Origin: a virus
Direction: 5' to 3' (one strand)
Length of the DNA stretch: 24,866 nucleotides
Virus record (IMG/VR): IMGVR_UViG_3300034980_000473
Span: 1-24,866 of that record
Numbering within the stretch: the first letter of the stretch is position 1; every line of letters starts with the position of its first letter. Below, piece by piece: positions 15,346 through 19,662 of the stretch. The position numbers and the translations under genes were made by a program. The notes beneath the pieces were generated by a model, which saw only the letters and a program-made list of their open reading frames with translations, ran no database searches and had not been told where the DNA came from.

Positions 15346-15406
15346 CAAAATAAAAACCCCGCCTGTCCCAATGATACCAAATAGTATCGTCAGAATCAAG
15401 CGGGTT
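15346..15406 (-). terminator. Terminator after the envelope cassette, with a long loop
   Basis: On the minus strand, AACCCGC (15400-15406) pairs with GCGGGG (15357-15362) through a 5-bp GC core plus two A-T pairs past a bulged G. TTTTTATTTT follows directly, the same T-tail as at 10960-10989. The loop is about 37 bases and holds a small inner hairpin (GATAC/GTATC). A promoter-like site lies within the loop. The terminator is 30 bases past the protease stop, as expected. Confidence 0.55.
15371..15399 (-). promoter_or_regulatory. Promoter-like site nested in the terminator loop
   Basis: TTGATT (15394-15399), exactly 17 bases, then TATCAT (15371-15376), a one-base variant of TATAAT. The -35 matches the promoters at 2247 and 10889. 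A transcript starting about seven bases downstream would carry only the second arm of the terminator, so it would not be attenuated and could serve the nucleotide operon. This is a motif-based prediction. Confidence 0.45.
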
Positions 15407-15435: not shown

Positions 15436-17337
15436 TTAACCAGTCACTTCTTCCATTCCTGGAAGAGCAGGTTGCGAAGGGGTCTCAGCGACGACCTCGT
15501 CCTCTTCCTCTTCTTTTCTTCCCCAAGGTAGCCTAGATGCGATTCTGGACTTCAAAGCCCCCCCGAGTCCACCAGTGGCCTTTCCTAGGCCAAAGAGGGC
15601 CAATAGACCCGCTGTTACCCGAGTGACCAAACTAAGTTCTTTTCCGTTTTCGTCTTGGGTTTTTTGAATCTCTTCAATAGCGGGACCAAGATTGCCAACG
15701 ACAGAAGAGGTTAACTCTTCCTTTGAAGGAACAACGATTCCAGTAAGCTGACCTTTTACTCCAGAAAGTTCCTGCTTCAAAGACTCTCTGAGAGATGCGA
15801 CAATTTCGTCCTTCATGCTGTCTTCTTTAGATGGTTCAACAGGAGGGGCATCAAAAACCTCAAGAGACTTCGTTATTGCCACATACTGACTTCCGTGAAT
15901 TCTCTCAAAGACAATTTCAATGGGGGTTTCTGGCGGAATCTTAGCCATTATTGACTTCTCGACTCGTCCAGCGATGAGGCTCTTAAGACCAAGCGACTGT
16001 TTCTTAACGAGAACCATAATGTAGAAAGAGGCAGGGTCGATACCTGCGGCTGTTACAAAAGAGTTGTAACGAATAGGCTGAGTTCTTTCATCAACAAAGT
16101 CGATATTGGCTTTGCCATCAAAGTATTCAGCGTTTGCTCTAGCAATTGGCCCTTTGATTGACTTAAGCAAAATCTTAACTGCTTCACCCCTTGTGTAGCC
16201 CAAGTCTTGCTTCTTGGCGACAATTATGATTGAAATGTTTTCCCAATCAACTTCTTGTTCGATAGGTCCCCGTTGTCCTAAATCGCCCTCAATTGGCGAT
16301 ACTGGAGCATCTAGGACCGGAGGAACAGAACCGGCATCCGGAACGGGGTTGTAGTCAGGAGTATCTGGTTCTACGATTTCTCCGTCTCTTCCATTACCAA
16401 AAAGAAGCATACCCAAACTCTTAACGCCCTTTACAATCCATCCCAGGACAGAGAGTTTAGCGCTGATGCTGGCGTTGTAGCCAGTCTTGTATTCTGAGCT
16501 ACCACGAATCCAGATGGTGGGCAGTCCAGGAATATCCTTACCCGTCTTTGCTTTGAATTCCCGAACTAAAGCCTCGTTGGTCCATTTTCCGTTTTCGTTC
16601 TTGACCTTAATTCGATTAAGCCCGCGAGAACGGTAGTCTTGTTCCGTGATGTCCCTATCTAGAACCTTGCAGGCGGAACACCAGTCCGCCGTAAAAATAA
16701 CCACATCAGCAGTTCTACCACGTTTGGGCGCGGGGACAACATCCCCACCTGAAGTAACAGCAGCGATTGCTTTACTTGTTGACCCCCAACTACTGAAGTA
16801 AGACTTGTTACTAGTCAAGGGGACATCAACAGCCTCAGTGATTCCAACAACCTCATCGTCTTCATTAAGTAGTGGTCCACCAGAGTTACCCGGAGAAACA
16901 CGCATTGAAACAATGTTAACCTCGCCCTTTCCGTCACCACTAATTACCCTACCGTAGGTAACAGCATAGTTTCCGCCAGGGAAACCAACGGTATGAACAA
17001 GTTCGCCAACTTTTGGCTTGTTTTTAGAAACCTTAAAAGAGGGGTATGTGTTGTATTTTGAGTTGGGGGCCATTTTGTACACAATCGGACCATCTTTGGT
17101 CGGAGAAGTGTAGATTAGGTCGCACTCAACATTCCCGTAGTTCTTGCTTTTCAGTAGTAGTTTTTTACCTAGATTACCAAGACAGTGCTTGGCTGAGAAT
17201 AGGTAGTTTCCATTAACGATAAAGCCAGTACATCCAGGCAACTGAACAACTCTAGCATCCGTGTTGATCGTTTCGGTCTTTTCCGCATGGACTACTGAGC
17301 CAATGAGCATTGCCGAAATAAAAAGTAAAGCCTTCAT
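15436..17337 (-). CDS. Secreted trypsin-like serine protease fused to a thioredoxin domain
   Basis: A 633-residue protein starting at the ATG at 17337, with AGGAAAA upstream. Earlier in-frame codons read into the upstream gene. A signal peptide spans residues 1-18 (MKALLFISAMLIGSVVHA). A trypsin-like protease domain (about 25-195) has H51 (AKHC), D82 (TKDGP) and S152 (PGNSGGP), plus C36 and C52 placed to form the disulfide next to the histidine. A thioredoxin-like domain (about 208-315) has WCSACK (C220, C223) and GLPT with cis-Pro 273. A proline-rich linker (about 325-360) follows, then two similar repeats (about 366-427 and 436-493), a charged helix, and a hydrophobic segment (about 570-590) before an acidic tail. 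It probably acts in the periplasm or at the envelope. The fusion is unusual in a phage. It is followed by the terminator at 15346-15406. Confidence 0.88.
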   Translation of the reverse strand: MKALLFISAMLIGSVVHAEKTETINTDARVVQLPGCTGFIVNGNYLFSAKHCLGNLGKKLLLKSKNYGNVECDLIYTSPTKDGPIVYKMAPNSKYNTYPSFKVSKNKPKVGELVHTVGFPGGNYAVTYGRVISGDGKGEVNIVSMRVSPGNSGGPLLNEDDEVVGITEAVDVPLTSNKSYFSSWGSTSKAIAAVTSGGDVVPAPKRGRTADVVIFTADWCSACKVLDRDITEQDYRSRGLNRIKVKNENGKWTNEALVREFKAKTGKDIPGLPTIWIRGSSEYKTGYNASISAKLSVLGWIVKGVKSLGMLLFGNGRDGEIVEPDTPDYNPVPDAGSVPPVLDAPVSPIEGDLGQRGPIEQEVDWENISIIIVAKKQDLGYTRGEAVKILLKSIKGPIARANAEYFDGKANIDFVDERTQPIRYNSFVTAAGIDPASFYIMVLVKKQSLGLKSLIAGRVEKSIMAKIPPETPIEIVFERIHGSQYVAITKSLEVFDAPPVEPSKEDSMKDEIVASLRESLKQELSGVKGQLTGIVVPSKEELTSSVVGNLGPAIEEIQKTQDENGKELSLVTRVTAGLLALFGLGKATGGLGGALKSRIASRLPWGRKEEEEDEVVAETPSQPALPGMEEVTG

Positions 17338-17342
17338 TTTTC

Positions 17343-17978
17343 CTACCTTCCGTCTATTGTGAACAGATATTGAATTAGTGGAGACCTGGCTAGGTCTGCG
17401 GGTGACACCCTGTCGTCTGCCAAGTACGGAACTGGGTCCATGTAGTTCTTTCTTAGCGAAACTGTGACCGCTGTTGAGCAAACTTTTGCTTCAGCGACAT
17501 CGTCATCGTTTCCAATCCGTTGAAAAAGTCTTACTCCGGGGACGTACCTTAAGAACATCTTAAATATATTTGACCATCCGTAAGGCTGACCCGTCCAATT
17601 GATTATATCCCTGGTTACTGCTCCTCCTACGGTTTTTGTGTACTCTTTTCGAGAAGATTCAGTAAAAATGTCGCATTTGTCGTCTACGTTAAGTATATCG
17701 AAATCAATCTTTTTAATTGGGCGAAATACATCAATCTCTTCTGGTAGTAATTTTACTTGATTCGCCAAAGAAACCGTTCTGCCCCCCATGAATTCCCTAA
17801 ATTCAACACATTGCCAATCCCCTCCGTCATTATGAGCAACAGCAACGTGGCTATGGACACCTCTTGTATATCTTTTAAGTAGAAAGCTTATGATGCCCTT
17901 GCCCCTAAAAAGCAAGATATCTCCCTCTTCTAGGACGTCCTGAGCATCTGCCCAGGGTATCATTTTATGATCATGCAT
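17343..17978 (-). CDS. Circularly permuted papain-like (YiiX/NlpC-P60-type) hydrolase
   Basis: A 211-residue protein. EEGDILLFRGKGIISFLLK then HSHVAVAHN holds the likely catalytic histidine H44. E59 (CVEFRE) is a possible third residue. C167 in AKVCSTAV is near the C-terminus, in the order typical of permuted NlpC/P60 families such as YiiX and LRAT-like. These enzymes act on peptides, amides or thioesters, sometimes in peptidoglycan. No signal peptide is seen. It overlaps the PAS-like gene by eight bases and lies just upstream of the secreted protease. An envelope or lysis role is inferred from context, not proven. Confidence 0.72.
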   Translation of the reverse strand: MHDHKMIPWADAQDVLEEGDILLFRGKGIISFLLKRYTRGVHSHVAVAHNDGGDWQCVEFREFMGGRTVSLANQVKLLPEEIDVFRPIKKIDFDILNVDDKCDIFTESSRKEYTKTVGGAVTRDIINWTGQPYGWSNIFKMFLRYVPGVRLFQRIGNDDDVAEAKVCSTAVTVSLRKNYMDPVPYLADDRVSPADLARSPLIQYLFTIDGR

Positions 17979-18552
17979 CTTTTTCTTCTCCCGCTGTAAT
18001 TAAAAAACCGTCTGATAATTTCAACACAGTAACTCTAATAGTAACTAGCTCACCAGAAAATGCCTGTATTGTTGAATTGAACTTATCCACCATTCCCTCT
18101 TCATTTAAGTCTTTTAGTCTTTTTATTTTAAGCTCTATGGATTTTCTTAGGTTTTCCGTTGGATAAAAAACATCTAGAACCGACTTAGAAAATATCTCCA
18201 TTGGATCAAATCCGTATATGTCACCTGAGTTACTTCTGGCTGAAAGTATGTTCATTTCCGGTAAATGACCCACTTTTAGTATTGTGATTGCAGAAGGAAT
18301 GTTGATCTTCTCTTCCATAATTAGTATTTTCCTATTTTGTTTATCTATCTCTTTGGTTATTATCTCTATTCTCTTAATAAAGGTCCTAATCTCAATTTCT
18401 GAATTCATGCCTTGCATCTTTAGTGAATGAACCGACTCAAGAAGTTCCCCAAGAACCAGCCCTTCCTGCTTCTGCATGGTTGATGAGACGTGAATTATAA
18501 CTAAAAAACAACAACCTATGTATAAAGAAAAATAAAATAAGGAGGCCCGCAT
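17971..18552 (-). CDS. Membrane-anchored coiled coil with a PAS-like domain
   Basis: A 193-residue protein. The start is placed at the ATG at 18552 because AGGGAG lies seven bases upstream. A further TTG in frame has no such site. Residues 2-24 form one transmembrane helix (LFYFSLYIGCCFLVIIHV), 28-85 are a coiled coil rich in E, K and I, and 87-190 resemble a PAS domain: SNSGDIYGFDPMEIFSK, then FYPTENLRKS, and a closing strand pair VTVLKLSDGFLITAG. PAS domains sense ligands, redox or light, or mediate dimerisation. No kinase or output domain follows. A membrane sensor in a phage envelope cassette is unexpected. The TM helix and coiled coil are clear, the PAS call moderately so. Confidence 0.65.
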   Translation of the reverse strand: MRASLFYFSLYIGCCFLVIIHVSSTMQKQEGLVLGELLESVHSLKMQGMNSEIEIRTFIKRIEIITKEIDKQNRKILIMEEKINIPSAITILKVGHLPEMNILSARSNSGDIYGFDPMEIFSKSVLDVFYPTENLRKSIELKIKRLKDLNEEGMVDKFNSTIQAFSGELVTIRVTVLKLSDGFLITAGEEKDA

Positions 18553-18591
18553 TAATCGCTCCCTGTGTAAATGTTGAATCAATTGTTGCTG

Positions 18592-18978
18592 TCATTCTCT
18601 ATTTGTGTTTTTTGATATCTTTTCGTGTAGTTCCTCTATTGATGGTAGAACGTATTTTTCATAATCACGCATATGAAAACCATCTCTTCTGTATAGCTCC
18701 AGCTCTTGTTCAATTTTTAATATCTTTGAGTGAATGACAGATATTTCGTTTGAGTTTTGTATTACGTCTTCCTTTGTCTTAAGATTTTCTTCTATCTTTT
18801 CCTTTAGGTTATTAACTATTTCACTGTTTCTAACCATAGATATCTGTAACTCGCTAAGTTGGGCAGAAACCCCGGTAAACCACCAGAACATCCCCATACT
18901 AAGTACGGTTCCAATTCCCGCGAGTGCGCCAAAAACAATCTTACTGGCAGTTACGGACTCTTCGTTTTTGACAGGCAT
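18592..18978 (-). CDS. Small TM-coiled coil membrane protein
   Basis: A 128-residue protein starting at ATG 18978 (MPVKNEES). A longer in-frame start would begin in the terminator hairpin and lacks a ribosome binding site. One transmembrane helix spans about 11-37 (IVFGALAGIGTVLSMGMFWWF), followed by a coiled coil (about 40-95) and a charged tail. A terminator T-tract lies immediately before the ATG, so expression probably needs read-through or processing. It has the same TM-plus-coiled-coil layout as the next gene. No family is recognised, but spanin or membrane-scaffold roles are possible. Confidence 0.7.
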   Translation of the reverse strand: MPVKNEESVTASKIVFGALAGIGTVLSMGMFWWFTGVSAQLSELQISMVRNSEIVNNLKEKIEENLKTKEDVIQNSNEISVIHSKILKIEQELELYRRDGFHMRDYEKYVLPSIEELHEKISKNTNRE

Positions 18979-18989
18979 AATAAAACCCC

Positions 18990-19026
18990 AAAAAAAGGGG
19001 CCGCCCACCATGAGGCGGGACAGCCC
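18990..19026 (-). terminator. GC-rich terminator after the Ala/Thr-rich gene
   Basis: On the minus strand, CCGCC (19014-19018) pairs with GGCGG (19001-19005), and an outer GGG/CCC pair can extend the stem. Seven Ts follow (18990-18996), then GGGGTTTT. It lies 19 bases past the stop at 19045, and the tail runs into the leader of the next gene (ATG at 18978). The T-tract is also framed by CCCC and GGGG, which could form an alternative hairpin. Confidence 0.72.
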
Positions 19027-19044: not shown

Positions 19045-19662
19045 TTACATACCTGTTCTGGCGGAGTAGTCATCCTGCTTAGGATCTTTCGCGCCATACA
19101 TGTAAGTAAGCTCACCAGGAACAACACTAGTTCCAACAGCACCATCTGGAACGGCAGTTTCCGAACCCGTTGCTGGATCGTAGAAGCTAGTGGCATTCAT
19201 AGCGGTAGGAGCAACACTCCAGTTTGTTCGCTGCCCGGAAATACCCAGTGGCATCCATCTTTGTGCAGCAAAAGCGGTAAGAGTCTTACCACCAATAGGC
19301 TTAACAGAAGCTCTATTGCCGTCAACGGAGGCATCGTTACCGTTCAGAACCAAAGCAGTGCTTGCACTGTTGTTGATTTTGTTATTGGCTTGGTTACCAA
19401 TAATCATGAACGCGGACTGATCGTAAGCAAAAGTACCCGTAGCAGCCAAAGCTTCCACCGTATTGGCAGTGTCTTTAGGAGCTGTTCGTCTAGAAACACC
19501 ATCGACACCCTGATCTTTAAGATCAAACGTTCTGGTAATCGGGCTACCGGCAGTCGTCGTTGTGGCAGAGGTGATACCAATAACGGCCCCACCAATAGAC
19601 TCAACGGGGGACGTGTCAGTGTTGTCAGTCGTACTTACTTTGTAGCTTGAAGGAATTGTCAT
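19045..19662 (-). CDS. Ala/Thr/Gly-rich protein, candidate virion protein
   Basis: A 205-residue protein with no recognised family. It is rich in A, T, G, S and N with few charged clusters, and the N-terminus (SSYKVSTTDNTD) is polar. Patches such as SATTTTAGSP and NNKINNSAST suggest beta-rich structure. There is no signal peptide or TM helix. The start has GGAG seven bases upstream, a promoter candidate lies at 19721-19749, and a GC-rich terminator follows, so it appears to be its own transcription unit. That arrangement fits an abundant structural or decoration protein, but this is inference. Antisense ORFs here look like shadows. Confidence 0.75.
   Translation of the reverse strand: MTIPSSYKVSTTDNTDTSPVESIGGAVIGITSATTTTAGSPITRTFDLKDQGVDGVSRRTAPKDTANTVEALAATGTFAYDQSAFMIIGNQANNKINNSASTALVLNGNDASVDGNRASVKPIGGKTLTAFAAQRWMPLGISGQRTNWSVAPTAMNATSFYDPATGSETAVPDGAVGTSVVPGELTYMYGAKDPKQDDYSARTGM

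Follow-up and report, generated by a model that had tools for sequence, protein, structure and literature searches.

A recurrent phage gene unit combining an exported protease-thioredoxin with a papain-like enzyme: a candidate envelope-disassembly module of Planctomycetota phages

What does a phage do with a secreted protease fused to a thioredoxin and encoded directly behind a papain-like enzyme and two membrane proteins? The question is raised by a virus record of 24,866 bases (the window, meaning the whole stretch analysed), in which ORF calls place four consecutive, packed minus-strand genes, A1-A2-A3-A4, at 18978-15436 (Table 1). An earlier note, made from the letters alone, had described them as a terminator-bounded envelope cassette and had suggested periplasmic remodelling with sensing, with lysis timing, superinfection exclusion or processing of host envelope proteins as possible outcomes. 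The analysis below follows the proteins, their recurrence in phages and planctomycete genomes, and the readings that these data allow.

Table 1. Features of the four-gene unit, with positions in the window
Feature	Position	Strand	Basis
Terminator hairpins, upstream boundary of the unit	18985..19024 (about)	-	pattern scan; RNA fold -22.8 kcal/mol, z -3.4
A1, 128 aa, N-terminal TM segment and coiled coil	18592..18978	-	ORF, PHROG, homologues, hydropathy and charge
A2, 193 aa, TM-coiled coil-PAS (PAS from slot homologues and model)	17971..18552	-	slot homologues, PAS secondary-structure order, Foldseek
A3, 211 aa, permuted papain-like (YiiX/C92-type)	17343..17978	-	PDB 3kw0 profile match, invariant residues, phrog_1128
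A4, 633 aa, signal peptide-protease-thioredoxin-C-terminal region	15436..17337	-	Pfam, alignment, AlphaFold model, Foldseek
Downstream terminator hairpin	15358..15404 (about)	-	RNA fold -25.7 kcal/mol, z -6.0; T-rich tail after hairpin

The unit and its proteins

Both boundaries of the unit consist of hairpins followed by T-rich stretches, so that the four consecutive genes are bounded by terminators as had been claimed. The upstream hairpins are positioned after a structural-looking gene (19045-19662) that adjoins the unit in the window family, and the stability of the downstream hairpin was equalled in 0/200 shuffles. Within the unit A2 shares 8 nt with A3, and 5 nt separate the stop codon of A3 from the ATG of A4 at 17337. 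An ATG at 18552 is a better start for A2 than the TTG at 18582, and A3 has a second in-frame ATG at 17963 that agrees with the N-termini of its homologues. A listed ORF of 681 aa from 17481 is an upstream extension of A4. A further ORF of 52 aa with a TM segment (18437-18595) overlaps the start of A2 in another frame and was considered as a candidate holin. The surrounding genes of the window encode dCMP deaminase, ribonucleotide reductase, dUTPase, PhoH, UvsX, helicase, primase and DNA polymerase.

A1 carries a single N-terminal TM segment followed by a coiled coil, as judged from hydropathy and charge and as first proposed, and its topology is probably N-in/C-out. A homologue is found at the same place in three further loci (L009-L011). 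It was not counted as a classic spanin or holin, its PHROG matches being weak (lipoprotein, 1e-6; Rz-like spanin, 0.03). In the A2 of the window the PAS domain lies below Pfam detection. The protein is too diverged for Pfam, and the assignment is therefore taken from homologues of the same slot, where PAS scores above the cut-off (PAS_3, 4e-8; PAS_9, 2e-7), and from a low-confidence model (pLDDT 50), in which the predicted secondary structure follows the PAS order and, among the Foldseek matches listed against the PDB, 50/50 are PAS-containing structures. On these grounds the PAS-like call survives.

The family profile of A3 matches the cysteine peptidase 3kw0 in the PDB with its N-terminal half (E 3e-6), and H44, E59, E62 and C167 are invariant in 12 diverse family members. 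The residue order is permuted, with a conserved N-terminal His before a C-terminal Cys, and the original assignment to the permuted papain-like fold holds. A3 has no signal peptide. No relevant Pfam family was found for A3 and two homologues, phage records gave three weak matches only, and a pattern scan of bacterial species genomes gave none. A3 does match phrog_1128, a family that PHROG classes as moron/host takeover; its present label, enoyl-CoA hydratase-like, is probably wrong.

A4 is composed of a signal peptide, a trypsin-like protease (residues ~30-195), a thioredoxin (~205-290), an uncharacterised alpha/beta domain (~365-495) and a C-terminus with a coiled coil and a weakly hydrophobic segment, where the TM signal is weak. 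Its N-terminal domain is a PA-clan trypsin-like protease by family score (Pfam Trypsin_2, 2.8e-12, 48 bits against a cut-off of 27.6), by fold (Foldseek matches to Spl and HtrA-type proteases) and by a triad (H51, D82, S152) that is invariant in the alignment of homologues. The thioredoxin region is sub-threshold for Pfam in the window protein (0.009); it forms a compact alpha/beta domain in the AlphaFold model, and its CxxC (C220, C223) and P273 are invariant in all A4 homologues. In a sister phage, an exported thioredoxin scores above the Pfam cut-off. The secreted serine protease fused to thioredoxin is thus as the earlier note had it. A protein search of phage records returned no A4.

Recurrence in phages and in planctomycete genomes

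Dozens of marine phages carry the unit, and it is present in planctomycete prophages as well. In eleven viral contigs an A3 with 58-66% identity is immediately followed by A4, and profile searches yield 46 A3, 65 TM-coiled-coil and 11 PAS-type loci, which overlap in that many lie on the same contigs. A TM protein is encoded directly upstream of A3 in 46/46 viral loci, the window counted. A secreted trypsin-like protease follows directly downstream in 35/46, a count that includes the A4 of the window by hand and several contigs that are near-duplicates. A3 is also among the genes common to three large divergent contigs (G009, G013, G014). Phage records contained no near DNA match to the window and no match to the TM-coiled coil protein of one further locus (L042).

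Of the conserved co-occurrence proposed for the four genes, one part stands: the TM gene, A3 and the secreted protease remain linked in most loci and in the planctomycete prophages, which speaks against independent genes lacking synteny. The four do not form a fixed unit, as PAS is optional, the TM slot is variable, and the TM or PAS gene is kept with other enzymes in some phages. Upstream of A3 the slot is filled in one of three ways: by a TM-coiled coil protein, by a TM-coiled coil-PAS protein or, in the window for example, by the two together. Where A3 is absent, the occupants are a membrane dipeptidase (Pfam 1e-50 in a sister phage), a PHROG holin (family E 1.7e-6, likewise in a sister phage), a pair of thioredoxins, or papain-C1-like proteins accompanied by an exported thioredoxin; the papain-C1-like name was given by eye from sequence motifs, and family and structure searches gave it no support. 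More distant phages encode a different secreted protease with a coiled coil, a TM segment and a basic tail, which often precedes a 262-aa gene and then a second secreted protease. Protease and thioredoxin belong together: the window group and planctomycete prophages have them fused, and in G013, where the protease is of this more distant type, the thioredoxin gene (108716-109042) is a separate one that comes next after the protease gene (109044-109979).

An A4 profile search of Planctomycetota genomes uncovered the protease-thioredoxin fusions of the prophages (E 6e-25 to 2e-31); against the phage families, the E values of the prophage fusion and the 262-aa gene range from 1e-22 to 1e-31. In prophages of four genomes the cassette runs TM-coiled coil, papain-like gene, protease-thioredoxin-TM and 262-aa gene, with HK97 gp10-like genes on one side and tail-tube-like genes on the other. 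In a tandem prophage of 36,168 bp, scanned with PHROG for the best 25 of 77 families, the papain-like gene and the protease-thioredoxin lie between replication genes and the terminase. The papain-like gene adjoining the prophage protease-thioredoxin matches phrog_1128, as does A3, and a TM-coiled coil gene with a weak match to A1 (0.005) usually adjoins too. The prophage papains had no PDB match, and their hhalign profile comparison with A3 was not significant; the two are linked through the common phrog_1128 match, their motifs and their position. The prophage proteases have Glu at the catalytic Asp position.

Two relatives encode a protein that we take to be DUF1501-like, and most of its best matches lie in Planctomycetota and Verrucomicrobiota. 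This protein and the A4-type prophages make it likely that the host of the window phage belongs to the phylum Planctomycetota.

A second form of the module lies in planctomycete chromosomes. A papain-like gene precedes a protein with a signal peptide, an HExxH motif, a thioredoxin and a TM segment in G165 and G115, and apparently also in G052. Judged from sequence, a metalloprotease-like domain appears to have replaced the serine protease in these loci, with the papain partner, the thioredoxin and the TM anchor kept; the PDB matches of the G165 protein confirm the thioredoxin part, and the metalloprotease call is the HExxH motif. No phage genes are visible around the three loci, so that a cellular or domesticated version exists.

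Envelope disassembly and its rivals

Searches of the relatives for five standard endolysin families came back empty. Amidase_2 had no match in nine related phage contigs (47-164 kb; control positive), and Phage_lysozyme, M23, SLT and M15_3 had none in nine contigs of 77-173 kb (controls positive), two overlapping sets of contigs that are not necessarily complete genomes. Other lysin families may be present in the relatives, including GH108 and GH19 (for which the controls were silent), CHAP, NLPC_P60, Amidase_3, GH25 and glucosaminidase. The host link, the missing endolysin families and the protease swap had no place in the earlier note.

The common core has three components: a protease that is exported, retained at the membrane and coupled to a thioredoxin, a hydrolase of the papain type, and a TM-coiled coil protein. 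This core points to a module that attacks the envelope. The earlier idea of a conserved phage unit, not described before and directed at the envelope, is supported. That this unit serves Planctomycetota-infecting phages to disassemble the envelope in the lytic phase, probably for lysis, is the reading favoured here, and it has about an even chance of being right. A4 would be exported through its signal peptide and retained at the inner membrane, where its protease domain would cleave host envelope proteins and its thioredoxin domain would open or exchange their disulfides. A1 and A2 would sit in the inner membrane as trigger or scaffold, exerting a holin-, spanin- or sensor-like control over when and where this occurs. 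A3, as a cytoplasmic papain-type hydrolase, may be released like an endolysin through a membrane lesion or may process a membrane-linked substrate.

Lysis is favoured by the conservation of the unit, its invariant active sites, the protease-thioredoxin pairing and the protease swap. It is favoured also by the prophage position, the holin and dipeptidase in the sister slot, the five lysin families without a match and the disulfide-bonded sacculus of the presumed hosts (PMC2754498). It is weakened by the order of genes in marine phages, where the unit stands before nucleotide-metabolism genes and the structural module does not adjoin, and by an A3 without an export signal. Chromosomal loci without phage genes weaken it in allowing a cellular role, as do the weak C-terminal TM in A4, the Glu for catalytic Asp in the prophage proteases and the non-significant comparison of A3 with the prophage papains.

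The wall of Planctomycetota was long described as protein and not peptidoglycan. Planctomycetes have a protein sacculus with disulfide bonds (PMC2754498) and possess peptidoglycan as well (PMC4432640), so that a peptidoglycan enzyme may still be required. A bolder version of lysis, offered tentatively and with chances well below even, is that Planctomycetota phages exit without a standard endolysin, a membrane-tethered protease-thioredoxin and a papain-type enzyme using proteolysis and thiol exchange to dismantle the disulfide-bonded protein sacculus, with the TM-coiled coil and PAS proteins setting the time.

A non-lytic modification of the envelope is the foremost rival, though an unlikely one. 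The enzymes would destroy or remodel surface proteins (receptors, secretion or stress systems) during infection; PAS would sense the redox or energy state, and the outcome would be host takeover or the exclusion of superinfecting phages. The signal peptide, the sensor-like PAS, the position of the marine unit ahead of nucleotide-metabolism genes and the moron/host takeover class of phrog_1128 are all consistent with this, whereas the holin family and membrane dipeptidase in the sister-phage slot are not. Prophage copies in the structural operon or beside the terminase are unexpected for lysogenic exclusion genes, since genes at such places should be silent in a lysogen, and superinfection exclusion, one of the functions first suggested, is accordingly disfavoured.

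The chromosomal loci raise a second rival, namely that phages captured a planctomycete envelope-processing system that keeps its cellular job, for example the maturation of disulfide-bonded surface proteins. The papain and metalloprotease-thioredoxin genes of G052, G165 and G115, free of visible phage neighbours, fit such an origin. Strong A14 matches (E <= 1e-15) in only 6/392 genomes of the phylum sample argue against a core cellular system, and the serine-protease form was located in prophages wherever its neighbourhood was read, which leaves this rival quite improbable. Proteins of virion morphogenesis or entry, maturing or carried in the particle, would suit the place of the cassette in several prophages, with gp10-like genes on one side and tail-tube-like genes on the other, and the structural-looking gene upstream in the window family, but the signal peptide and membrane-anchor-like C-terminus of A4 and the N-terminal TM of the A1/A2 slot proteins make them very unlikely.

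Paper searches turned up no account of a module of this kind, nor of phage lysis proteins with a PAS domain, and to our knowledge phage lysis of Planctomycetota is unstudied. A module with a protease-thioredoxin pairing and a swapped protease class, from phages in whose relatives five standard endolysin families had no match, makes the question of planctomycete lysis testable with defined genes. If the lysis reading is true, it adds a mode of phage exit and offers a proteomic entry point to the question of how the planctomycete envelope is held together.

Comparison with known systems

The individual proteins have known counterparts. A4 shares the protease fold and triad residues of secreted trypsin-like proteases of the HtrA/MucD and Spl types; unlike these it is fused to a thioredoxin and a new C-terminal domain, with no PDZ seen by Pfam. 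It has the CxxC, conserved proline and export signal of periplasmic thioredoxin/Dsb-type oxidoreductases, from which it differs in the fusion of its thioredoxin to a protease and in being encoded by a phage. A3 has the profile relation and the permuted His/Cys order of the YiiX/YaeF-type enzymes (peptidase C92; 3kw0; phrog_1128). In contrast to them it is phage-borne, lacks a signal peptide and occupies a fixed position, with a TM protein on one side and a secreted protease on the other. Permuted papain-like amidases have been noted in Alteromonas phage V22 (PMC7289586) and in tyroviruses (PMC9703825), where they are classed as a metabolism-related gene or with the tail proteins. In the parts of these two sources that bear on them they have a broad fold name in common with A3 and, unlike A3, no protease-thioredoxin or PAS partner is described there.

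The lysis genes of lambda, S-R-Rz/Rz1, lie upstream of the terminase. The unit resembles such holin-endolysin-spanin cassettes in being small and compact and in combining TM/coiled-coil proteins with hydrolases. Its copy in the tandem prophage lies, like the lambda lysis genes, between replication genes and the terminase, and a PHROG holin family occupies the equivalent slot in a sister phage. Unlike the holin-endolysin-spanin cassettes it has no recognised peptidoglycan hydrolase within it; it has an exported protease-thioredoxin and a permuted papain enzyme, and its membrane protein bears a putative PAS domain.

Genes bordering the unit

Directly upstream of the four-gene unit lies a gene for a structural-looking protein of unknown family, and a homologue of this protein is kept in that position in most of the close viral relatives. 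A 52-aa ORF with a single TM segment starts at the stop of A1 (TM-coiled coil) and overlaps the start of A2 (TM-coiled coil-PAS) in a different frame. In the close relatives (L002-L012) the protease-thioredoxin gene A4 is followed directly on its 3′ side by A5, a small hydrophobic protein of about 80 aa, whereas A5 is absent after A4 in the window. In one of these relatives, L004, about 1 kb of inserted sequence, perhaps an intron or an intein, interrupts a ribonucleotide reductase gene.

Positions of features in the window and in compared loci
Feature	Sequence	Position	Strand
52-aa ORF	window	18437-18595	minus
Structural-looking protein	window	19045-19662	minus
Interrupted ribonucleotide reductase gene	L004	12291-13333	
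Tandem prophage (L283-L285)	G052, contig 1	190-250 kb	

Replacement of A3/A4 in related phages

Phages of the same group can carry other genes in place of the papain-like A3 and A4. At L110, L140, L148 and L151 this place holds a membrane dipeptidase (M19) or similar-looking gene together with small TM proteins, and the latter three loci also have one or two thioredoxin genes there. At L174-L181 a small TM protein comes next after the TM-coiled coil-PAS protein, and most of the loci read then have, in place of A3/A4, either an exported thioredoxin or a papain-C1-like protein.

Planctomycete loci

The planctomycete genome G052 contains a 36,168-bp prophage as a perfect tandem repeat (100% identity over at least 23.8 kb). 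A chromosomal locus of three genes, apparently outside prophages, is found at L299, L300 and L301. It encodes a papain-like protein, a signal peptide-HExxH protein-thioredoxin-TM protein and a product of about 220 aa; at L300 and L301 the second of these was inspected over its whole length.
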